DNA of 60,676 nt, taken from the IMG/VR virus record IMGVR_UViG_3300025009_000110, positions 1 through 60,676 of that record. One strand, given 5' to 3'. Below the pieces are notes generated by a model, which saw only the letters and a list, made by a program, of their open reading frames with translations, did no database searches and had not been told where the DNA came from. This DNA comes from a virus. Shown in pieces: positions 1 to 60,676 of the stretch. Numbering within the stretch: position 1 is the first letter of the stretch; each line of letters opens with the position of its first letter. The position numbers were made by a program, and so were the translations under genes.

Positions 1-126
1 CCTTTTGATTGAATTATATCTCCGCTGGCGTTCGCAGTATTCGCATGAGCCATGATTCAGACATCCACGACTTGGACGCCTATTCCTCGACTCTCGATCC
101 TGCCATATTTTCATTCGCCGTGGCTC
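1..126. repeat. Left copy of the terminal 126-bp overlap
   Basis: These bases recur exactly at 60549-60674. The next base differs (G at 127, C at 60675) and the one after agrees again. An overlap of this size is what a k-mer assembler leaves when it closes a circle. A gene reads straight through the join, which favours a circular or circularly permuted genome over a true short terminal repeat. Confidence 0.9.
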
Positions 127-22144: not shown

Positions 22145-25100
22145 TCAATCGTTGCCGAGGGTCTTGTTGTATCTTTTGTTAAATTCGACCTGTGCGCTTT
22201 CAATCAGCTTGTCTATCCTGTCGGTATTGCCCTTCTTGCTGACGATCTCTTTTTTCTGCTTATTGAGATCCCGTATTCTTTCCTCGGTCCTTTCGAAGGC
22301 ACCAACCATTTTGTACAGCGGCTCACGAATCAGTCCTGGCCTGTCGTCCTTGGTTGCACTCTTCAGCTCGCGAACGAAGGTGCTCATCTCCTCGCGGTTC
22401 TCAAAGTAGATCTGACGGTTTATTCCTGTGGGCATGGTGCCTATCAACCTCCTGGCTATTGGGACATTTCGGATCGACAGATCGCCCTCTGCTACTGCGA
22501 ACGGAAGATTCAGTACGTCTTTGGCCATCTTACCGGCACCGCCAGTAAATGTCTCGACCAGCATCTCGATAGTTTCGGGCGAAACAGAGATCGCCCCTTC
22601 CCGGTACTTACTACCACCGGTATGTCTATTGAGCCACTCGGTCACCGCCTTAGACGCCGGGTTTACATCTTTGAAATAAAGCTCGCTGTCTGGCTGATTC
22701 GCCCACGGGTTACCGGCAGGCATGAGAGGGCCACCGTGCCATGCAGCATTCTCTCTTACCTGGGCAAGCGGGTCCAGGAGAGTAGGTGCCACGGTTTGAA
22801 GGATGGTGCCAGCGGCCAGTGGGTTGAAGTTGTTGATGAAGGCCTTGCCCCATCTGATCGCCGCCTCCACTGGCTTCTGCCCCCGCATTACACTACCTAT
22901 CTCTTCGCCAAACTTGAAGAAGATATTGTAGCCGTAGGCCATGGGGATCTTGATATGTTTGCCCTCGCCGCCTGGAACCATGAGCACGATGTTGCGCTCA
23001 AACAGGGCCGGGTTCGACCTCTTCAGCTTGTCGTAGTAGGAATCGCCGTCGTCGTCATCGCCACCAGCTATTGCCCCCAGGAAGCTTGCGAACGCTCCAA
23101 ATGCAGCGATACCAACTACTGTTTTTCTGACAGTCGATGACGATCCTACCGCCTGGAGAATCCTGACGTTGCCTTGTATTCCGGCGTTTGCGAACATCCA
23201 CAACGAGTTCATTGCCGGTCCTGCTGTGCCGTGTTTCGTGAAGTCAACTGTCAGGTTGGAGGCAATACGGGCCGCGTTACGCTTGTCGATCCCTGATTCT
23301 ACCAGGGCCTGATATGTTGCCACCCTGACGCCGTTCTCGACAGACAGGTTGATGCTCTCGATAAAATTACCGAGACGCATGAAGTTTTCCTTGATCTTGT
23401 GCCCGCCATTTTTCATCTCAAGGTCTGACTGGATCTTCTCTGATAGCTGGGCGACGTCATCATACGACCTCATCCATCCCATGATGACACCGTTCTCTGC
23501 GGCATCCCGGTATATCGCGCCCCACTGGCCTGAAGGTTTCCCGCGCTCCTCGCGGTAGATACCAGCAACAGCGCTACGGATATTCCCGAATACTTTCGAC
23601 TGCATACCAGCTGCTTCGGTCGATGACATATTGACCATGGCTGTCTGTAAGTCGCGGATAAAGTTTGGCAGGGTAAACTCTGGGGTCCATGTGGTGGACA
23701 GCCTGGCGAGTATCCTCGTGACATGACCAGACGCCCTGATAATTGGACCGAGCGGGGTGACCTGGCGATTGATAGCCTCCATGAAGCGAACCGCCATAGG
23801 GTTATCCTTCGCCACCTCGATAATGTGCTTGACGCCATCGACCTTGACGTAGGTTTGGTATTTCGGGTCCAGCTGCTGGTCCGGGTAGAATCTGACATTG
23901 CCCTCGTTATCGAGATATGGGGCCTTCTCAAGCTCGCCGATTGACCATAGACCTTCATCAGGGTTTTGCTTCACCATCTCGTACAGTGCCCTTCCAGCCT
24001 CTAATTTACGCCTTCTCGTGAGGGCTGACTGGTAACGGTCAACTACATGGGAGAGGATGTGCGCCACGCCATTGGTCGATCCATAGGCTATTTTTACCGG
24101 TTTACCGAGGGGGCCAACCCCGGCTTTGCCGGTCGGAGTTTTCCCTTCGTCTGATTCCTCTCTCATGAGCGGGATGTGATACTGGTAAGTACTAACTATC
24201 GCCGAATACTCGTCGTCTGTCAGCTCCCCTGCCTCGTGGTTTATATCAAGGGCGGCACGACTTATTGAGCGCATCATCTCTGCAGCCTGGTACACATCGG
24301 CTCTACCCTGGAAGCGATCCTCGATAGCCCTGGCCTGCCCGTTCGTCATGCCGGAAAGCCTGCCCTTGACATCATCCCAGTGGGCGATAATGGACTCGCG
24401 TTTTTCCAGCCTCTCATACATATTGAGCAGACGGTTTTGCAGGAATTCCGGTGTGCCTTTTTTGATCTCTTCAGCGGTGAAGACCCTAGCGGCAAATTCT
24501 TTGGCGAGTTGGTCAACCTGCGCCCGCTGACTCCGCACGGTGTCGGCCATCTCCTCAACCAGGGCAATTGTGTTGTCGCGCCTCTTGTTTCTGGTCTGGT
24601 CGTTCATGACGAATTCATCCTGGATAAGCCCGAGCTTGTCTTGCCACGGGCGCTTCTCGGCGTCGGTCATAAAAATAAGGAGGTTGTCAACGTACCGCCT
24701 GGCGTTTACCCGGCGCATCTGCAGGTTGCGTTCAGGTGCGTGTTGGGCATGCGCCAGCTCCTCAACATCCTGGATAGAGATCTTGTGCTTTGCCAGGAAA
24801 TCGAGGAACGGCTGCAGGACATTCTTGTCAAACTGCTTAACGTCGTTGGCCATAATCTTGCCGACAAGGCCTTTCAGGGTGGCATGATCCCGCTCGATTG
24901 GCTGCGGACCTATACTCTCCTGCACCCGCTCAATCGCTTTATCCCTGTTCCAGAAGTAGGTGGCGATCTCGTCAAACTTGCCCTTGAAATCAACTGTATT
25001 GGCCATCCTATCCAGGAAGGTCACTGCAGGATGTACTGAGCCGACTGCCGGGGTAGGCGTGTATGAGTCAGCCCAACCTGCGGAAGTAGCGTCCTTCCGG

Positions 25101-28100
25101 GAGATGAGGATATCCTCTGGCTTCTGATTCATACCCATCAGCCCCTCACCCATGAGCATTCCCTCAAGAGTCTCCCACGGCGGATGTTTCTTTCTGTCCG
25201 CTTTCGACATGCCAAGCCTGGCCTGTGTCAGCCTGGCCTGTACCTCACCCGTCAACCGTTTGTATTCGTTGTGGCTGATACTGTTGATGTTGCCAGACAG
25301 TACGACCCACTCAGCGCCAAGTACGCTTCGGCTTTCCATGAGGGAATCGTAGAGCTTCCTGGCCTCAGGTACGAGCTGGCCCTGGTATTGTGGCCCGTTC
25401 GCTGCGATCCACGACATTTGTTCGTTGATACTGGCTATCTGCCTATCGAGCTGAGTGAGTTTATCCTGGTTCTTCTTGATCTGATTGGCGACGTTTCCGC
25501 CCTTCGAGAAGTTCTCGATATCTTGAATGACGTGCTGCATCTCGTGCTCAAGGACTGTTCTTGCTGCTGGGTCAAACAGGGTTATATTGATTCTGATATT
25601 TCCCTCCTGGTCCCAGCCGCCGAGATGGCCCTGATCGAGCTTCGCTGCAATGACCCTCACTTCCTTGAGATACGGGTACGCCTTAAACAGCGGTGGATTA
25701 TTGTAAACCTCAGGAAGAGGCACGGCTGCATTGGGCTTCATCATGCCCCAAGTCCTGGCGTCCCACTTGCCGGTGGAGTCGTCAATCTCGTACTGCCATT
25801 CACCTGGAACCATCTCCCACCAGCCGGTTTCATCCCATATCGATTTCCTGTCAGCACCACCCTCCTTCATCGCCTGGGCTTTCTCCATTAGGGAAAGCTG
25901 CTTGCCCTCGTCCTTGAGGTAGCTGTGAGACACTGCGAGCTTAAGATAATCGTCTGGCTCTACGTTACTCAACTGTACGCCTTTATCTCGTAGGAAGATT
26001 TTGGCGTCTCTCATATTGATGCCGGTGGTGAGGCTTTCCCTGCCAGCCATCTGGAACTTTATCCCTTCGATGTCAAACATTGTCGGCTTGTCACTGCGTG
26101 CTTCCCTCCTGATCGCGAGATCCGCCAGAGCCTTGAAGTCCTTCTCGTTGAAGATCTTGTACGAAACTCCGAAGCGCGTGACCATACTTTTTATCATCGC
26201 AATAATGCGCCTGACGATCCCGACGTCCTCTGACGTACTCACCATGTAGGCAAGGATCTCCTCGCTGAAATCCTCCTTGGCCGTGCCGGTTGGAATCTGC
26301 TCGATTGCCCGCCTGATAGCATCCCCGGTGTCTGACTTTTCTCCGCGCCGCCTATCGATGGTTTTCTTCATCATCTGGAATTCAGCGCTATTGGCCATCA
26401 TCCTGCCGATATGGGTGCCTATTGCGTGACGCAGTGACCCCCATAACTCGCCGCTGGGGATGTTCTCGGGAACCAGTATGGTTTTTCCGGGAATCTCTAT
26501 TCCGATTGGCACGAGATTTGCATCAAGCTCGGCCTTGGAATATCCGGCTTCCTTGGCTTCGGCTATGGCTTCGTCGGTTGTCATAAGCACCACCTTGCCG
26601 CTGCTTACTAGCTTGGATGCCACACTCCTTTGGCCAGGGCTTAGGCTAGAGAGGAGGCTATCGAATACTGTTCGCGGAAGCCCTGAAGAGAGTTTACCAA
26701 GTCCAGCCTGCAGCTTAACCCCGGCCTCTGGTTGTAATGTCTCCCTGGTTGGGGTGATCTTGCCAAAAATAGCAGCCACCTTTCCACCATTCATGTCTGA
26801 CCAGTAGCCAAGATATCCAGCGTCCTTGATGAATTTCTCGTACAGGTTGGTAGCATTAATGAATGGATTCTGTGTCCTAGCCGCCTGAGCTTTAGCTCTA
26901 AGCCCTTCTGGGTCTTTGGCAAAATCGTACATCTTCGAGGGAGGAACCTTGGCCTCGTATCGGTATTGGCCGAGGCCCACTTCCTTGCGGTATCCACCGC
27001 CCCCTATCCCGTAATATGTCCTGTTGACCCAGTTGTCTGGATCGGCATGCTGTCTCTTCGCCTCTGCCCCTGAAATGCCTTCTCCGTATCTGTCTGGATC
27101 AATAGTCTTCATACCTGGAACTGGTGACCAGTGAACCAGGTTCATATTTCCGTCTGAGTCGAGGGGGATTGAAACCTCTATGGCCTGGAATTTTATTCCA
27201 CCGAGCTTTTCGAATTCCTTGACTTCTTGCTCACGGAGCTTGAGGTTTTCGCCCGAGTATTGCTGGATAAGACTTTCGAAGTCTGACCGCCTATCACGAA
27301 GCCACCGTTGTAGATCTGATCGTTCACCGATGCTTCCTTTATCGAGAATCGTTTCGCCATTACCGTCTTCGCTCCAGTTGTGGACGTATCCATATTCCCC
27401 TTCGGCCCACATGGATTTCGCCTCGGCAACACCGAGATCGGCACCATGGTTGTCGAGGAATGACTGGACCCCGCCCATGAAAGTTTCGTCATCTACGAAC
27501 GGCACACCCGTCGAGTCGTCCCTGAAATTTATTATCGCGATCTGGTTGTTAGAAATCCTAGTAAATCCAGCTCCTTCACCGAGTGCTGCCAGGACTTTAT
27601 TTTCTAGGTTTTCTGTGATGTTTTCCGAGAATTCTACCACCACACCCCGAGCATATTTACCGCCCTTCACGGAGAATGATTCACCGCGTTTTGCCGCTGC
27701 AGCCTGGGCTTCGGCCAGGGAATTGTGACGTGAGATAGTTGTGCCCCTCTCGTTGACCACCCGGAATTTCTGCTTATCCTGATTGACCTTCGACAGCATA
27801 GCCGCATCAGTCCTGAACCATGGAACCGCATCCTGTTTAAAAATGTATTGGATCGCGAGAGCGTAATCCCTGGCGTTGTCGCGGACAAACTCACCGCCCT
27901 CTTTCGCCAGGACCACATGGCTGAGACTGTTAGGGTTGACGTTACCACCGTAGGCACCAGCTCCATCGCTCACGAAGGAGATTGACACCCCGAGTCTCTG
28001 CGCTAACATGTCAGCGCCGTCATTCGACAGCAGCAGCCCCCTAGCCTCAGAAGTAAACATGCGCTTAACTGCTGGCGAGGCATTGAATATATCGTACTCA

Positions 28101-31100
28101 AACGAAGAGCTAGGGATCGCCTCCCAGGTGATTGTCGATGTAGCCCTGTTGATGAACGTCGAGAAATCTGCTGCGGTAAGTTCTGCATTCTCCCTGGCCT
28201 TTCTCGCCGGTAGTAACATGGCCTGCCGGTGCCAGATCTTACGGTGTTGCTTCAGTGACTCTGCGTCCTTCTTGAACTCTGGCCTGCCGTTATCTCCGAT
28301 AAATGAGTAACCCTTCTTGACCGACTCGCTCCAGGTCTTGGTTTTGACCACGGCATCCTCATACCTGGCCTTCATCGCCGTCCAAACAGCGGCTTGCACC
28401 TGGAACGGAATCCACTTCTTGTCGCCCCTCTTGAGACTGGCGTTCAGCCTATCGGTTACCCTGAGTATCTCGTTCTCCATGAATGAGTACTGACCGGTGC
28501 CCTTATCGTCCCTGACAACGATGTCGTCGTAGCCGAAAGCCCGCTTCATCCACATGTCGATTGTGGCCTTTTCCTTAAGTAGCGCAACGGTGGAGGAGTC
28601 GAGGTCCATCTTGGCGATGGCTGTCGGGTCGTTGTGGATGATCTGGCTGACGAGATTGATATAAAAGCTGTTGGTCTTCCTGCCGTCGAATGGCTTGTTG
28701 TCATAGAGAACATCGACCGCTTTTCCATCCTGGTCTGCGGTCTTGACCTTAAACTGTTCCCTCGGGACGTTGTTGACGAACTGATTCCACGCCTTGACGG
28801 CGAATACGGTGTTGGCCTGAACATGCGCCTGTGGGGAGTATATGGCAATGAGCTGGATAAATTTCTCGGCCTTGGCCACATCTCCGTTCATGGACTTAAG
28901 CACGGCATTGGCCGAATTCTCGTACCAGAACCTGCCTACCTCGCCCTCCTTAAGGAGCCTGACAATCTTCATCCTCATATTGTCGAGATCTTCCTTGGAG
29001 TTTACGTTCGGAGGTGCCCCCTTAATCTTGCCGTCAGATGTGGTTGGCGGCTCCCAGTCGAAGAAGCCGAGATCTGCTTTTTCTTTGGCGAAGGCAGGGT
29101 GATTCCTGACCACCTCGAAGCCCTCCTTGAGGTACTTGCCATAATGCTCGCCTATCTCTCCGATAACCTTGGCAGACCAGTCGGCGAAGTCGCGGACCCC
29201 TTGCTCGAAGTATGCACCACCGATAGTGATAACGCTTCCAAGTAGTTCCGGATCGACGCCTGCGCTCAAACGGCCTCGTCCCTCTTTAAGATTCTCCCTG
29301 GCTTTTCTCACCCTATCGGCGGTGAATATCTTGTTCTTTGCGAATTGCTCTGTTTTCGGGGCAATTTTCTCTTCAGTTTTTTGCCCTACCACTTCGACGA
29401 CTTCTTCCCGCCGCCCTCCCTCTTGGGTTTCCACCCCAGCTTTCGCATCGTCCCGTACACGTACCTGTCCTGGGCCTCTTCCGACAGCCCCTTCTGCTGC
29501 GCCTCTTTCTCCAGTTGGCGCTCCAATTTCTTCGGCATTGAAACCTCCTTCAACATTATCATTGACTTCCTCTCCTTGTTCGGTTATAGTTCTTACTGGC
29601 TGGGAGACATTAACTGAGGAGGTTGGTATGGAAGTCTTTTTAGATTCTGGTAACGATACATTTGTTCTGGATACAAAATCCAGGAGGGTGTTTCTGGTTG
29701 ATGGTGACAGTCGGTTCGAAATCGTGGACCCCGTGACAAAACTTAAAATCCTTGCTGAGTCATCGGCAAGAGCTGAAAGACCAGCACGGAAGTCCTCGGT
29801 AGATTGACCGCCTTCGCCTCGCGCCGAAGACGCCGCCGCTGCATAGCCACTATCCATTAGCTTGTTAAGCATATGGAGAGTGGCTGTCTTGATATCCTTA
29901 TCAAAATTATCGTTAGTTAAGTGGCCAATCACCTTGTAAAGACTGTGGAGCTTTTTCTTTGCCTCCATCATCTGCTCTGTGTTGAGTTGTAGCTCATAGA
30001 TATGGCCGTTGGTAGCCCTCATGGTTAGTTGTATATCCTGGTAACCACTGACATCCTCCTGGCCATATCTATTCTTCCAGGACATAACATCGTCCCTGTC
30101 CTTGATTTTCGTGAAAGCTGCCTTTAGCGAGGCGTAGTCTGGGTACACTACAGTTACAGCAACGATATCGTCTACCATCGAAACCCTGCCGCCATACTTA
30201 TTTTTTAGCTTAAGATCGGCAGTCTCTCTCTTTTTGAGTCCGTCATCGAATGGACGCAACTTAACCCTGCCATTGGTTTCCTCGGCAAACGTGGTTGCTT
30301 GTTTGTTGATTTCGCCGACAGCCTCCTTGGCATGTTGATACAGGGTGTCCATGCTATGACTGACAGACTCGCCTTGGAGGACCTTTGGTACTAATTCTAC
30401 TTCGGCATATTTTTCACCACGGGCAACAAGCTCCCTGAGTGTGGTATTACCGTCAACTACCCTAACAGTCCCATCCTCTCTCATGATCGCCTTGAGTGGC
30501 TTTCTCTTTAAACCAGTGCCTTCCTTGGCCTTGTCTATAAGCGACCTGGCTGAGGATATTTTTTGAGGGCTGATCTCCTTATTGATGGGGAGAATTTTAG
30601 ATACCTCCATAGCCTGGCTATTCGTTGTTGGTTCGAAGTAGTCGCCGGTAGCGCTTTTCTCTTTAGCGGCCTGCGGAATCGCCACAAAGCCCCCCTGTCG
30701 CTCGATCACCTCGTAGCGCGATAGATCCACCCCACGTTGCTTCGCGCTCGTTCTGAGGGCCTTCTCGCTTGAAAATGGGGCTCCTGTGGATCTGGCGAAT
30801 TCTGGCGGTGCTTCGAGGAACGCCTCTTCGGCGGCTTCCCGTCTCTGTGTTTTGGTTTCTGGTGCCATGGCGTACTGAGCGCCAGGAAATTGCTGTGCCT
30901 CTTCTTCGCGGGCGAGCTGGGTTTTAAGTTCGGTTTCCGGCGCTGCGGCCAATACCTCTGCGGCCTCCGCTGCGGTCGAAGGTCTTCCCTCTGGTTCAAA
31001 GGCGAACGCCTCCTCAAGACCAGCCATTCTGGCTTCTTGTTCTGACGGTCCAGCCTCCTCGAATACCTGAGCGGCCCCCTGGGCGGTGCTGGGCGGCGGC

Positions 31101-32467
31101 GTAGATTGGAATGTCGTAGCGCCTTCCGCTGTGTTTATTTGTAAGGAATTCCTAAATGCCACAATAGCATCGTCGAGCGATTCGCTTTCAAGGATCGAAG
31201 CCGGGATAGTGACCTCTGGCTGCGGTGCCGGTGCCGGTGTCGGTTGTGCTGCCGGTGCGCCTGCTCCCTTGTCGGCAAATGCTTTGATCGCTGCCGGGGT
31301 TTCCATGACAGATCCACCGATACCGCCTGCTGTTTCCATGGCGACTTCGCCGATATCTACCTTGCCGTATCCAGCGTATTGTCCTGCGGCCTCAGAGATT
31401 GGTTCCTCGGCAACCTGGGTTCCGTAGGCCTTCGCGCCTGTCGCGATCTTTTCTCCCATGTCCCTGGAGGCCAGGATCTCTTTTGTGGCCAGACTGATCT
31501 CGTCTGCCGTGGCGTCGGCACCGAGTCTCGATACTGCCTGCTGTTGAGCCGACTTGAAAGCGGATGAGGCGATCTTGCCGGTCATCACGTTCATTGCCGC
31601 CGATACTGCGGATGTTGCCGTTGCCTTATCCCTGGCATTATCAACGGACTCTTCAATAAAAGCGTCGTCGGCGAGGATAGCCAAGACGTTCTCTTCGGTT
31701 GGCTCAAGGCCGCGCTTTTGCAATTCCTGCGCCACCATGCCACGAAATTCAGAGCCAGCCTCAATGCCCCACTGCCCCATGAATCCGCCGACCACGCCAC
31801 CGATAGTAGCACCAGCAGCCGTACCGACGCCTGGAATAACGCTACCAGCAGCGCCACCAGCCTTCGCGCCACCAACCATCCCCACCATACCAGGCACGAT
31901 ATTGGCAGTCTGCTCCGCCGTCATGTAGGCCAAGCCCTTGGGGTTGAACGCCACTTGATAAGCAAGGGCCTTGATCGTGTCCCATGCCGCCTTGGCTTTT
32001 CCACTCAGGTCTTCCGCCTTCTCCCAGTCCTCTGATGGGGCGGTTATTTCCTCCTGGAATTCCTTCAGCTCTTCGGGTGTGAATTTCTTCTGCTCGGCGA
32101 GAATACTTTCGGCCAGGATGGATGCAGTATTGGCATCAATCTCACCGCTGGCCATGTCGTCGGCAATCCTGGAAGCTGCCAGAGTCGCCTTTCCACCGGA
32201 CTTCACGAGGGCGAACATATTCGCCAGGAACCCTCGACGGCTTCCCTCGATCTGTTCCTCTACAAAACCACGGACGTCTGGGCCGAAACGCTGGTCGAAA
32301 GTGCTGATCAGCTGGTTCCGCTCTTCTTCTGGTGCTGCTTGGAATTCCTGGTCTTGATAAACCTCAGTCCAGAAGTCTTTAGCGTATTCGTTCTGGACTG
32401 AGAGCTTTTGTTCCGGGGTGGCACTCTGATATTCAGGTAGGCCTTCGATCTGCTCGAATGGGATCAT
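22145..32467 (-). CDS. Giant polyvalent (DarB-like) internal virion protein, 3440 aa
   Basis: A multidomain protein of the polyvalent class that phages are thought to eject with their DNA. Visible regions (residues approximate): a helical N-terminus with a Gly-rich hydrophobic hairpin (190-235); a Pro/Ala linker (400-520); a ParB-like segment (615-695, VVDGNTTLRE); a RelA/SpoT-like nucleotidyltransferase (715-850, SGYQDIQL, YELQLNT); a conserved segment with VGRFWYENSANAVL and AIYSPQAHVQANT (1170-1370); an ADP-ribosyltransferase-like domain (1770-1905, LVHWSPVPGM); a degenerate zincin-like motif HAIGTH (2012); an intact HEMQH zincin motif (2307) in an LPD23-like domain; long helical stretches (2500-2750); and an LPD38-like C-terminal module (2880-3160) with one membrane span. 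Domain names beyond motifs are from memory. Confidence 0.85.
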   Translation of the reverse strand: MIPFEQIEGLPEYQSATPEQKLSVQNEYAKDFWTEVYQDQEFQAAPEEERNQLISTFDQRFGPDVRGFVEEQIEGSRRGFLANMFALVKSGGKATLAASRIADDMASGEIDANTASILAESILAEQKKFTPEELKEFQEEITAPSEDWEKAEDLSGKAKAAWDTIKALAYQVAFNPKGLAYMTAEQTANIVPGMVGMVGGAKAGGAAGSVIPGVGTAAGATIGGVVGGFMGQWGIEAGSEFRGMVAQELQKRGLEPTEENVLAILADDAFIEESVDNARDKATATSAVSAAMNVMTGKIASSAFKSAQQQAVSRLGADATADEISLATKEILASRDMGEKIATGAKAYGTQVAEEPISEAAGQYAGYGKVDIGEVAMETAGGIGGSVMETPAAIKAFADKGAGAPAAQPTPAPAPQPEVTIPASILESESLDDAIVAFRNSLQINTAEGATTFQSTPPPSTAQGAAQVFEEAGPSEQEARMAGLEEAFAFEPEGRPSTAAEAAEVLAAAPETELKTQLAREEEAQQFPGAQYAMAPETKTQRREAAEEAFLEAPPEFARSTGAPFSSEKALRTSAKQRGVDLSRYEVIERQGGFVAIPQAAKEKSATGDYFEPTTNSQAMEVSKILPINKEISPQKISSARSLIDKAKEGTGLKRKPLKAIMREDGTVRVVDGNTTLRELVARGEKYAEVELVPKVLQGESVSHSMDTLYQHAKEAVGEINKQATTFAEETNGRVKLRPFDDGLKKRETADLKLKNKYGGRVSMVDDIVAVTVVYPDYASLKAAFTKIKDRDDVMSWKNRYGQEDVSGYQDIQLTMRATNGHIYELQLNTEQMMEAKKKLHSLYKVIGHLTNDNFDKDIKTATLHMLNKLMDSGYAAAASSARGEGGQSTEDFRAGLSALADDSARILSFVTGSTISNRLSPSTRNTLLDFVSRTNVSLPESKKTSIPTSSVNVSQPVRTITEQGEEVNDNVEGGFNAEEIGAPTGERGAAEGAVGRGPGQVRVRDDAKAGVETQEGGRREEVVEVVGQKTEEKIAPKTEQFAKNKIFTADRVRKARENLKEGRGRLSAGVDPELLGSVITIGGAYFEQGVRDFADWSAKVIGEIGEHYGKYLKEGFEVVRNHPAFAKEKADLGFFDWEPPTTSDGKIKGAPPNVNSKEDLDNMRMKIVRLLKEGEVGRFWYENSANAVLKSMNGDVAKAEKFIQLIAIYSPQAHVQANTVFAVKAWNQFVNNVPREQFKVKTADQDGKAVDVLYDNKPFDGRKTNSFYINLVSQIIHNDPTAIAKMDLDSSTVALLKEKATIDMWMKRAFGYDDIVVRDDKGTGQYSFMENEILRVTDRLNASLKRGDKKWIPFQVQAAVWTAMKARYEDAVVKTKTWSESVKKGYSFIGDNGRPEFKKDAESLKQHRKIWHRQAMLLPARKARENAELTAADFSTFINRATSTITWEAIPSSSFEYDIFNASPAVKRMFTSEARGLLLSNDGADMLAQRLGVSISFVSDGAGAYGGNVNPNSLSHVVLAKEGGEFVRDNARDYALAIQYIFKQDAVPWFRTDAAMLSKVNQDKQKFRVVNERGTTISRHNSLAEAQAAAAKRGESFSVKGGKYARGVVVEFSENITENLENKVLAALGEGAGFTRISNNQIAIINFRDDSTGVPFVDDETFMGGVQSFLDNHGADLGVAEAKSMWAEGEYGYVHNWSEDGNGETILDKGSIGERSDLQRWLRDRRSDFESLIQQYSGENLKLREQEVKEFEKLGGIKFQAIEVSIPLDSDGNMNLVHWSPVPGMKTIDPDRYGEGISGAEAKRQHADPDNWVNRTYYGIGGGGYRKEVGLGQYRYEAKVPPSKMYDFAKDPEGLRAKAQAARTQNPFINATNLYEKFIKDAGYLGYWSDMNGGKVAAIFGKITPTRETLQPEAGVKLQAGLGKLSSGLPRTVFDSLLSSLSPGQRSVASKLVSSGKVVLMTTDEAIAEAKEAGYSKAELDANLVPIGIEIPGKTILVPENIPSGELWGSLRHAIGTHIGRMMANSAEFQMMKKTIDRRRGEKSDTGDAIRRAIEQIPTGTAKEDFSEEILAYMVSTSEDVGIVRRIIAMIKSMVTRFGVSYKIFNEKDFKALADLAIRREARSDKPTMFDIEGIKFQMAGRESLTTGINMRDAKIFLRDKGVQLSNVEPDDYLKLAVSHSYLKDEGKQLSLMEKAQAMKEGGADRKSIWDETGWWEMVPGEWQYEIDDSTGKWDARTWGMMKPNAAVPLPEVYNNPPLFKAYPYLKEVRVIAAKLDQGHLGGWDQEGNIRINITLFDPAARTVLEHEMQHVIQDIENFSKGGNVANQIKKNQDKLTQLDRQIASINEQMSWIAANGPQYQGQLVPEARKLYDSLMESRSVLGAEWVVLSGNINSISHNEYKRLTGEVQARLTQARLGMSKADRKKHPPWETLEGMLMGEGLMGMNQKPEDILISRKDATSAGWADSYTPTPAVGSVHPAVTFLDRMANTVDFKGKFDEIATYFWNRDKAIERVQESIGPQPIERDHATLKGLVGKIMANDVKQFDKNVLQPFLDFLAKHKISIQDVEELAHAQHAPERNLQMRRVNARRYVDNLLIFMTDAEKRPWQDKLGLIQDEFVMNDQTRNKRRDNTIALVEEMADTVRSQRAQVDQLAKEFAARVFTAEEIKKGTPEFLQNRLLNMYERLEKRESIIAHWDDVKGRLSGMTNGQARAIEDRFQGRADVYQAAEMMRSISRAALDINHEAGELTDDEYSAIVSTYQYHIPLMREESDEGKTPTGKAGVGPLGKPVKIAYGSTNGVAHILSHVVDRYQSALTRRRKLEAGRALYEMVKQNPDEGLWSIGELEKAPYLDNEGNVRFYPDQQLDPKYQTYVKVDGVKHIIEVAKDNPMAVRFMEAINRQVTPLGPIIRASGHVTRILARLSTTWTPEFTLPNFIRDLQTAMVNMSSTEAAGMQSKVFGNIRSAVAGIYREERGKPSGQWGAIYRDAAENGVIMGWMRSYDDVAQLSEKIQSDLEMKNGGHKIKENFMRLGNFIESINLSVENGVRVATYQALVESGIDKRNAARIASNLTVDFTKHGTAGPAMNSLWMFANAGIQGNVRILQAVGSSSTVRKTVVGIAAFGAFASFLGAIAGGDDDDGDSYYDKLKRSNPALFERNIVLMVPGGEGKHIKIPMAYGYNIFFKFGEEIGSVMRGQKPVEAAIRWGKAFINNFNPLAAGTILQTVAPTLLDPLAQVRENAAWHGGPLMPAGNPWANQPDSELYFKDVNPASKAVTEWLNRHTGGSKYREGAISVSPETIEMLVETFTGGAGKMAKDVLNLPFAVAEGDLSIRNVPIARRLIGTMPTGINRQIYFENREEMSTFVRELKSATKDDRPGLIREPLYKMVGAFERTEERIRDLNKQKKEIVSKKGNTDRIDKLIESAQVEFNKRYNKTLGND

Positions 32468-58803: not shown

Positions 58804-59151
58804 TTACTCCTCCAGTGCGTGAAAGTTATTCCTCGCCTGGTAACCACGGTCGGCGAGATCTTTGAGATATGCCCTTAGGGCTATAAACACGGGGAGCGCG
58901 TCTTGCTTTCCGTCAGCAACCGCCTCCAGGTATGCGTGCTCGGCTTCCTTGCCGAAGGCTGCGATGATCTCATCCTTGATGGTTTCGTAGACAGCCTCCG
59001 GAATATCATAGGCCCATGCTGCAGCGCCAAGTTCGTCATGGCCGTGTATCCTTTTCATCTTCATTACAGGTTTCTCCTCACGGCTAAAGATCCTATCCCA
59101 GCCTTCCCGGTAGTTGTCACTCGGGATATGACACGAGCTTTTACCCTTCAT
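58804..59151 (-). CDS. Hypothetical protein, 115 aa
   Basis: The N-terminal CHIPSDNYREGWDRIF reads like a conserved motif seen in other phage small proteins, and the rest is helical with Glu/Ala-rich segments (AFGKEAEHAYLEAVADGKQD). No enzymatic motif. It overlaps its upstream gene by 4 bases. Confidence 0.6.
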   Translation of the reverse strand: MKGKSSCHIPSDNYREGWDRIFSREEKPVMKMKRIHGHDELGAAAWAYDIPEAVYETIKDEIIAAFGKEAEHAYLEAVADGKQDALPVFIALRAYLKDLADRGYQARNNFHALEE

Positions 59152-59381
59152 TCGTCGTCGTCCTCCCTTGCTATAGGAAGCCTTATCCCCTCGCCAAATA
59201 CTTCCCTAGAAGCGGAGTCCCGCAGCTCGAAGTCAATGTCGTCCAGCACGTACAGCTTGCCGACGTCACCATTGATTGCCTTAATTCCAATCCTTAAGAT
59301 GGCGATATCCTCGGATAGCTGGGCCAGCTTATTTTCGAGGCGAAGAATCTTTTCTACCATTTCTTTCTTTTTCATGCTCAT
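59148..59381 (-). CDS. Coiled-coil protein, 77 aa
   Basis: ATG 59381 overlaps the stop codon of the kinase-like gene (TGATG) with AAAAAGGCGG upstream. The protein is a heptad-rich helix (KKKEMVEKILRLENKLAQLSEDI) with an acidic C-terminus. A longer upstream frame (from 59618) only shadows the kinase-like gene. Could be a partner of that gene by coupling; inference only. Confidence 0.6.
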   Translation of the reverse strand: MSMKKKEMVEKILRLENKLAQLSEDIAILRIGIKAINGDVGKLYVLDDIDFELRDSASREVFGEGIRLPIAREDDDE

Positions 59382-59836
59382 CACCAATCCGCCTTTTTCA
59401 TTCTTTTGGTCCTGGTTCCACGGTAGAGTATGTTGCTGTACCCGTAATCGTGACATACCAGCAATTCCGTTGAGCCATCCCTCGACTTCACCATTCCCCA
59501 GTTGGCCACCTTTACGTCGGTGAACCATATGGGGATTTCGGCCAGTAATTCGGATGTCGATGGACGCCTCGACTGCTCCATTATCAGGATCTTGCCGTTC
59601 GGGCTTATGCACTTGCACTCGGCGAACCAGCGAGAGGCTGGAGTGCCAACCACGCTCATCCAGATCTCCATCTCCATGACGTTCTGGCGATACGATGAAT
59701 CCTCTTCAACCTTGACGACGTAACCAGGGAGGATGTCGCACTCGTACACCTTGCGACTCAGTCCCTCGCCAAGCTTTCTTCCGCAGAGGACATCGAACGC
59801 ATCATGAAACGCTTCAAGTCTGTTTGTTCTGCTCAT
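59381..59836 (-). CDS. Miniature protein-kinase-like protein, 151 aa
   Basis: The order of kinase motifs is present at reduced scale: a glycine loop L22-G23-E-G25 followed by SRKVYE, a VVKVEE strand with candidate catalytic Lys 42, Glu 55/57 in an alpha-C-like helix, a hinge-like ILIMEQ, then D107-x-K109-x-x-N112-W-G (like the catalytic-loop D-x-K-x-x-N) and D130-Y-G (a DFG-like triplet). The usual C-lobe helices are absent, so it is about half the size of a kinase domain. I recall similar uncharacterised proteins in other phages. Whether it binds ATP or phosphorylates anything is unknown. Confidence 0.65.
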   Translation of the reverse strand: MSRTNRLEAFHDAFDVLCGRKLGEGLSRKVYECDILPGYVVKVEEDSSYRQNVMEMEIWMSVVGTPASRWFAECKCISPNGKILIMEQSRRPSTSELLAEIPIWFTDVKVANWGMVKSRDGSTELLVCHDYGYSNILYRGTRTKRMKKADW

Positions 59837-59837
59837 C

Positions 59838-60323
59838 TCAAAACCTCAGGTAATGATCCCATACAACCGGGGTAAGGTTGCCGGGAAGGTAGAGTGGGTG
59901 CGCCGGGAAGCCCTTCTTGGTCAGCCGAAGCACGTGCAGGTTATCCAGCATGAGGGGGAGGTTGTCCTGGCGGATTCTCTCGATATTGTTTCCCCAGCAG
60001 GCCACTACCATCTTGGCCTCCCTGCAGACACCTCTAAGCACAATATCATTTACCTGACCAACAGGGTCAGTAATTTTCTTCAGGTGTTTGGGGTCGGTGA
60101 CCCTGAATGCGTAGGCGTTGACCATTACGAGGCGCTTGTACCCCCAGGCCTTGGCGAAAGCCACGCATCGTCTAATTGTCGGATCGTCTTCCTTAGCGTC
60201 GGCGGTCGATGGATTGAGGCCGATAAAGACACATGCTCCCTGACCGGTGTCCCATTCCCTTTCCAGGGTATAGCGATACTGGCCATCCAACGATATATGG
60301 GCGTTCTTACTGACGTAGTTCAT
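59838..60323 (-). CDS. DUF1643-family protein, 161 aa
   Basis: The family signature is clear: CVFIGLNPSTADAKEDDPTIRRC, then FAKAWGYKRLVMVNAYAFRVTDPKHL, and a C-terminal LRLTKKGFPAHPLYLPGNL. DUF1643 proteins are widespread in phages and bacteria with no established function; the fold resembles uracil-DNA-glycosylase-type domains in some analyses, which I mention only as a lead. It overlaps the next gene by 4 bases. Confidence 0.88.
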   Translation of the reverse strand: MNYVSKNAHISLDGQYRYTLEREWDTGQGACVFIGLNPSTADAKEDDPTIRRCVAFAKAWGYKRLVMVNAYAFRVTDPKHLKKITDPVGQVNDIVLRGVCREAKMVVACWGNNIERIRQDNLPLMLDNLHVLRLTKKGFPAHPLYLPGNLTPVVWDHYLRF

Positions 60324-60517: not shown

Positions 60518-60676
60518 GATCCTTCATCTCCTGGATAGAAGCTTCTATCCTTTTGATTGAATTATATCTCCGCTGGCGTTCGCAGTATTCGCATGAGCCA
60601 TGATTCAGACATCCACGACTTGGACGCCTATTCCTCGACTCTCGATCCTGCCATATTTTCATTCGCCGTGGCTCCC
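60504..60676 (-). CDS. 3' part of the junction-spanning zinc-finger-like protein
   Basis: This is the end of the gene that begins at 183 on the left edge. Its TAA is at 60504-60506. Bases 60549-60674 duplicate the left edge, so this partial frame also contains the zinc-knuckle-like CLNHGSCEYC core. Joined, the gene is 228 bases long and encodes 75 residues. Confidence 0.55.
   Translation of the reverse strand, partial: EPRRMKIWQDRESRNRRPSRGCLNHGSCEYCERQRRYNSIKRIEASIQEMKDHGDE
60549..60674. repeat. Right copy of the terminal 126-bp overlap
   Basis: Identical to 1-126. One mismatch follows at 60675 (C against G at 127). The overlap shows that the sequence closes on itself, giving a unit of 60,548 bp. 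Confidence 0.9.

Follow-up and report, generated by a model that had tools for sequence, protein, structure and literature searches.

The stretch of DNA analyzed here, the window, is a 60,676-base contig from a virus and carries head, packaging and replication genes. A direct terminal repeat of ~126 bases occupies window positions 1-126 and 60549-60674, the contig's final two bases being different. Given this terminal redundancy, the genome of ~60.5 kb may be complete and map as a circle. The minus strand also holds a single ORF of 3440 codons (22145-32467), which is very large for a 60-kb phage. Toward the right end of the window, the first-pass annotation had described a 151-residue protein encoded at 59381-59836 with the core motifs of a protein kinase but no C-lobe. 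The ORF was confirmed and assigned to the minus strand, which had not been specified. Stop codons interrupt a plus-strand reading of these coordinates, and the residue numbering was right (GEGLSRKV at 23-30, VVKV with K42, E55, D107-x-K109-x-x-N112 and D130-Y131-G132). The gene, its two neighbors and the features within it are as follows:

59838..60323, minus strand: upstream gene for a DUF1643 protein (161 aa; PF07799, E 5e-39)
59381..59836, minus strand: gene for the kinase-like mini-protein, a PHROG 4301 member (151 aa; ORF, PHROG match and AlphaFold2 model)
59747..59776, minus strand: glycine-rich loop KLGEGLSRKV, residues 21-30, beta1-beta2 (G25 and R28 in 38/38 members, G23 in 34/38; model strands 18-24 and 28-33)
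59711..59713, minus strand: K42, the VAIK-type lysine on beta3 (38/38; model strand 39-44)
59672..59674, minus strand: E55, the alpha-C glutamate (38/38; model helix 51-62)
59519..59575, minus strand: shortened link from hinge to catalytic loop, residues 88-106, with invariant P102 (18-23 aa from hinge to D107 in 38/38; no model helix of at least 4 residues)
59495..59518, minus strand: catalytic loop D107-V-K109-V-A-N112-W-G114 (D107, K109, N112 and G114 in 38/38)
59441..59449, minus strand: metal-binding D130-Y131-G132, the DFG equivalent (D130 and Y131 in 38/38)
59384..59410, minus strand: conserved C-terminal tail TKRMKKADW, residues 143-151 (family-specific signature; model strand 146-148)
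59148..59381, minus strand: downstream gene for a probable coiled-coil protein (77 aa; ORF)

The stop codon of the DUF1643 gene lies 1 nt before the ATG of the kinase-like gene, whose own stop overlaps the ATG of the coiled-coil gene (TGATG). From this overlap, translational coupling to a possible partner protein had been proposed. The overlap is real, and further overlapping gene pairs are present in the same leftward cluster (60320/60323 and 59148/59151), but since the other operon junctions that we checked are equally tight, the coupling is no evidence for a partner. The 77-aa protein has no relative in the other loci examined, including every homologue locus used, leaving the partnership unsupported. 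As for the DUF1643 gene, an Opitutus MAG (locus L066) has a homologue of it (43% identity) at a distance of ~2.6 kb from its kinase-like gene, and none was seen next to the other relatives.

Spread and conservation of PHROG 4301

In a profile search, residues 9-150 of the window protein matched PHROG 4301 (E 7.1e-25), a family whose function is not established. Conservation was assessed in an alignment of 38 members with the window protein at its head (pairwise identity median 38%, minimum 27%); all 38 match this PHROG, are of similar length and carry the same catalytic set. Named members are YuA gp39, M6, MP1412, PaMx11, Pan1_02, Lacusarx LAV_00062 and Lydia PaL_00027, and the window member differs from most of the family in a beta7-beta8 hairpin that is 6 residues longer. 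A tblastn search with the window protein found matches in 99 phage records, the weakest few of which are chance, with 84 of the 99 covering at least 80% of the query. These are mostly Pseudomonas phages, and the classified ones belong to the Mesyanzhinovviridae (YuA, M6, PaMx11 and others). Members also occur in Nanhaivirus (Pan1, R26L), in Lacusarxvirus, and in an Erythrobacter and a Vibrio phage, distant copies reside on five plasmids of Rhizobium, Agrobacterium and Methylobacterium, and scans of IMG/VR contributed ~40 further loci. A scan of bacterial genomes with one degenerate pattern returned a single relative, the one in the Opitutus MAG, and so, at one-pattern sensitivity, the scan gave no sign that the family is common in host chromosomes. 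The scan patterns were built from narrow alignments, the broad alignment having yielded no searchable one. Matches in an Aeromonas and a Vibrio breoganii phage (L017 and L018, E about 5) proved to be non-members upon alignment and were left out. At two loci the kinase-like gene is broken between two reading frames (L023 1390-1842 and L065 1730-2210), by frameshift or sequencing error, and at another (L048 3989-4588) a 200-aa member carries a 76-residue segment after the metal-binding Asp in place of the usual tail.

Some members already are annotated as kinases, in the records of AN14 ('serine/threonine-protein kinase'), PAKlein3, Pan1 ('cyclin-dependent kinase-like 5') and Lydia ('protein kinase', with the note 'gp 0.7; T7-like'). 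The Lydia paper names BLAST, HHpred and AlphaFold 3 with DALI as the basis of its genome annotation, and its general-features section does not discuss the kinase-like gene (PMC11946847). In several lineages (L005, L006, L040, L050, L065), the large terminase gene abuts the kinase-like gene upstream or downstream, and in others the gene lies among DNA-metabolism genes, for example those for DNA ligase and exonuclease. We sought a conserved genomic neighborhood across the relatives and found none, the neighbors differing between phages; this variable context points to no single role. PADLOC gave no result.

Seventeen of the 151 alignment columns are invariant: G25, R28, K42, N52, E55, W59, A72, S78, G81, P102, D107, K109, N112, G114, V127, D130 and Y131. 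The chance that K42, E55, D107, N112 and D130 would all fall among these columns is about 1e-5. The core motifs reported by the first-pass annotation hold up, with K42, E55, D107, N112 and D130 unchanged in 38/38 members, among them the four (K42, D107, N112 and D130) for which a survey of homologues had been suggested, but the third residue of DYG varies, being G in 31 members, A in 6 and S in 1. The His-Arg of HRD is not present in the 38-member alignment, and the residue preceding D107 is mostly T or S. Counting from D107, K109 is at +2, N112 at +5 and D130 at +17 to +27 (mostly +17). The PKA counterparts are D166, K168, N171 and D184, and the spacing of D107, K109, N112 and D130 is the catalytic-loop spacing of Ser/Thr kinases. 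A reading as an inositol-polyphosphate kinase (PxxxDxKxG) was rejected, because ~17 residues separate this Asp from the DFG-type Asp, matching protein kinases, and the corresponding distance in inositol-polyphosphate kinases is far longer. Most members continue for 17-30 residues after D130, the window protein ending 19 residues past DYG, and most end in a basic K/R-rich stretch followed by KADW or similar.

Predicted fold

With the family alignment as input, AlphaFold2 modeled the window protein at pLDDT 93.8 and pTM 0.85. The N-terminal part of the model comprises a helix at residues 3-17, strands beta1-3, alpha-C (51-62), a short helix (66-70) and beta4-5, with G25, K42 and E55 falling on beta1-2, beta3 and alpha-C, respectively. 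The C-terminal part has beta7 and beta8 (113-117 and 124-128), a helix at 134-139 and a short strand at 146-148. The model contains no helix of at least 4 residues between residues 70 and 134, a span that includes residues 88-106, the expected place of alpha-D and alpha-E. Alpha-D, alpha-E, alpha-F onward and the APE activation segment all are missing from the model, in which DYG is followed only by a short helix and the tail. The protein thus is confidently modeled as a kinase N-lobe plus the catalytic and metal loops, in agreement with the first-pass annotation, which had called for such a model and had described the C-lobe as absent. Since the 18-23 residues between hinge and D107 in all members are too short for alpha-D plus alpha-E, the predicted loss of the helical lobe throughout the family is supported by spacing in all members and by the model in one.

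The structural matches are mainly to kinases. With Foldseek, three PDB matches fell below E 1e-3, two of them to OspG and one to NleH2 (OspG/NleH-type match at E 6e-4, TM about 0.46), and with few exceptions the further PDB matches listed were protein kinases, RIO kinases and aminoglycoside phosphotransferases. In VIA-align, the window protein reached Z 8.7 with SAICAR synthase (93 residues) and Z 8.4 with both TTK and HopBF1 (125-127 residues), a Z near 8 being modest. Among the VIA matches listed, all except SAICAR synthase were protein kinases, RIO/PRPK kinases or aminoglycoside phosphotransferases; that other folds did not appear among them was not counted as evidence. A viral-model library gave relatives from the same PHROG family (PaMx11, Lacusarx) as the best matches; next came further phage proteins, of which several are short and some carry a protein kinase annotation.

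Sequence-profile searches returned less. Pfam gave 0 families for the window protein and hence no kinase model, and the only recurrent Pfam match in the family was to YrbL (PF10707), which is weak (9/38 members, best E 0.0029), does not extend to the window protein and corresponds to a longer profile (185 positions). PDB sequence-profile searches gave nothing significant, with kinase matches at E about 0.35 in one search and none in another, and a HopBF1 model matched 1/38 members at a non-significant E of 0.11.

Possible activity and alternatives

Given that the ATP-binding and transfer residues all are invariant across 38 members with a median identity of 38%, we think it probable that the PHROG 4301 protein is a minimal ATP-dependent phosphotransferase of the protein kinase fold without the helical substrate-binding lobe. 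The fold and the conservation were computed here, and from these we infer an activity, a substrate and a role. K42-E55, N112 and D130 would hold ATP-Mg beneath the glycine loop, the acceptor hydroxyl would be positioned by D107, and the gamma phosphate would be stabilized by K109, as in Ser/Thr kinases. The target protein, a dimer mate or the conserved basic tail might substitute for the lost substrate platform, and the product would be a phosphorylated host (or phage) protein. By analogy with T7 gp0.7 and JSS1_004, host takeover or counter-defence would be the likeliest role. The stronger proposal, in which these kinases are active although the helical C-lobe is gone entirely, alpha-E included, and the target, a dimer mate or the tail replaces it, we hold only tentatively, at somewhat less than even odds. 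The first-pass annotation had suggested that such a core, if active, would be new. In a limited literature search we indeed did not find an architecture without alpha-E described, and it is more reduced than the active kinases known to us, but PHROG 4301 is present in many phages, some members already are labeled kinase, and other reduced kinases are known (OspG, SteC, HopBF1, T7 gp0.7).

The retention of catalytic residues by members that all lack a C-lobe also would fit proteins that form one half of an obligate complex, in which the substrate lobe comes from a dimer or from a non-homologous protein of phage or host origin. OspG offers a parallel, as it needs a partner and is activated by E2-ubiquitin (PMC13395416), and the conserved tail is a possible interface. 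No neighboring gene, the coiled-coil gene included, is conserved across the family, which makes a dedicated adjacent partner unlikely and leaves a host partner or a homodimer as possibilities. We regard an obligate complex as rather less likely than not, though this reading refines the phosphotransferase explanation more than it excludes it.

Alternatively, the protein might be a nucleotide-binding pseudokinase or decoy, similar to the ATP-binding decoy for host kinases raised in the first-pass annotation, that binds ATP, a host kinase or the substrate of that kinase and acts by sequestration or allostery, with no phosphoryl transfer. Pseudokinases typically lose the catalytic Asp or the phosphate-contacting Lys. 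Here D107 and K109, which serve transfer and are dispensable for ATP binding alone, are invariant in 38/38 members from very different phages, and we therefore disfavor the decoy and consider it unlikely. What speaks for it is the missing substrate-binding lobe, the variable third residue of the DFG equivalent, and the finding that SteC constructs without much of the C-lobe are inactive (PMC13395416), such that removal of this lobe can abolish activity. Least probable, and in our estimate quite improbable, is a small-molecule or nucleotide kinase whose open cleft phosphorylates a metabolite or modified nucleotide in the manner of aminoglycoside phosphotransferases, since, despite the APH(2'') enzymes and SAICAR synthase among the structural matches and the DNA-metabolism neighbors (DNA ligase, exonuclease) in several phages, the helical C-lobe where APHs bind their small substrate is missing in PHROG 4301, the catalytic-loop spacing and the DxKxxN lysine are like those of Ser/Thr kinases, and the neighboring genes are inconsistent between phages.

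If the PHROG 4301 protein is an active phosphotransferase, phosphoryl transfer by the protein kinase fold would need only the nucleotide lobe and two loops, which bears on the origin of the fold and on the minimum needed for a kinase. The family then also would be a widespread addition to the phage kinases that rewire hosts (T7PK) or disarm defence (JSS1_004). Its presence in well-studied, cultivable phages (YuA, M6, PaMx11) makes the proposed activity directly testable.

Comparison with reduced effector kinases and T7 gp0.7

OspG, NleH2 and HopBF1, in which the C-lobe is reduced, are among the top Foldseek and VIA matches of the window protein, whereas the sequence relation of OspG/NleH/HopBF1 to PHROG 4301 is not significant. 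OspG/NleH, SteC and HopBF1 are injected effectors that act on eukaryotic hosts.

As a control from phage, the kinase domain of T7 gp0.7 (T7PK; 239 aa) was modeled in the same way with 17 relatives (pLDDT 85, with low confidence after residue 220). Its VIA matches were kinases, with a top Z of 8.6, a level similar to that of the window protein. Most of these alignments run no further than about the DFG region of the target or slightly beyond it, and the T7 gp0.7 fold is predicted to end just after the DFG equivalent. The Ser/Thr kinase activity of T7PK is established, and its N-terminal domain of roughly 30 kDa is active (PMC4858673), so that activity in a phage kinase is compatible with a predicted absence of alpha-F onward. 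The kinase domain of its homologue JSS1_004 phosphorylates DndFGH, rendering it inactive (PMC12345140).

T7PK nevertheless retains more than PHROG 4301. Between hinge and catalytic loop, the T7PK model has helices at 147-161 and 175-188, the latter alpha-E-like, and PHROG 4301 has neither; the distance from hinge to catalytic Asp is 59 residues in T7 gp0.7 compared to 18-23 in PHROG 4301. The N-terminal helical part, the DxHxGN..ITDP motif set and the C-terminal shut-off domain of T7PK also are absent from PHROG 4301. HHalign related the family profile to T7 gp0.7 at 79.5% probability over 24 columns, from the glycine loop to the beta3-Lys only, whereas none of 30 column-shuffled controls exceeded 0.5% and the reversed control gave 0.2%. 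An alignment confined to these 24 columns does not place PHROG 4301 in the T7PK family, and the link is consistent with either distant homology or a shared constraint on the nucleotide loop. T7PK and JSS1_004 (Autographiviridae) resemble PHROG 4301 in being phage proteins that can be aligned from the glycine loop to the beta3-Lys and in a predicted fold that stops soon after the DFG equivalent.
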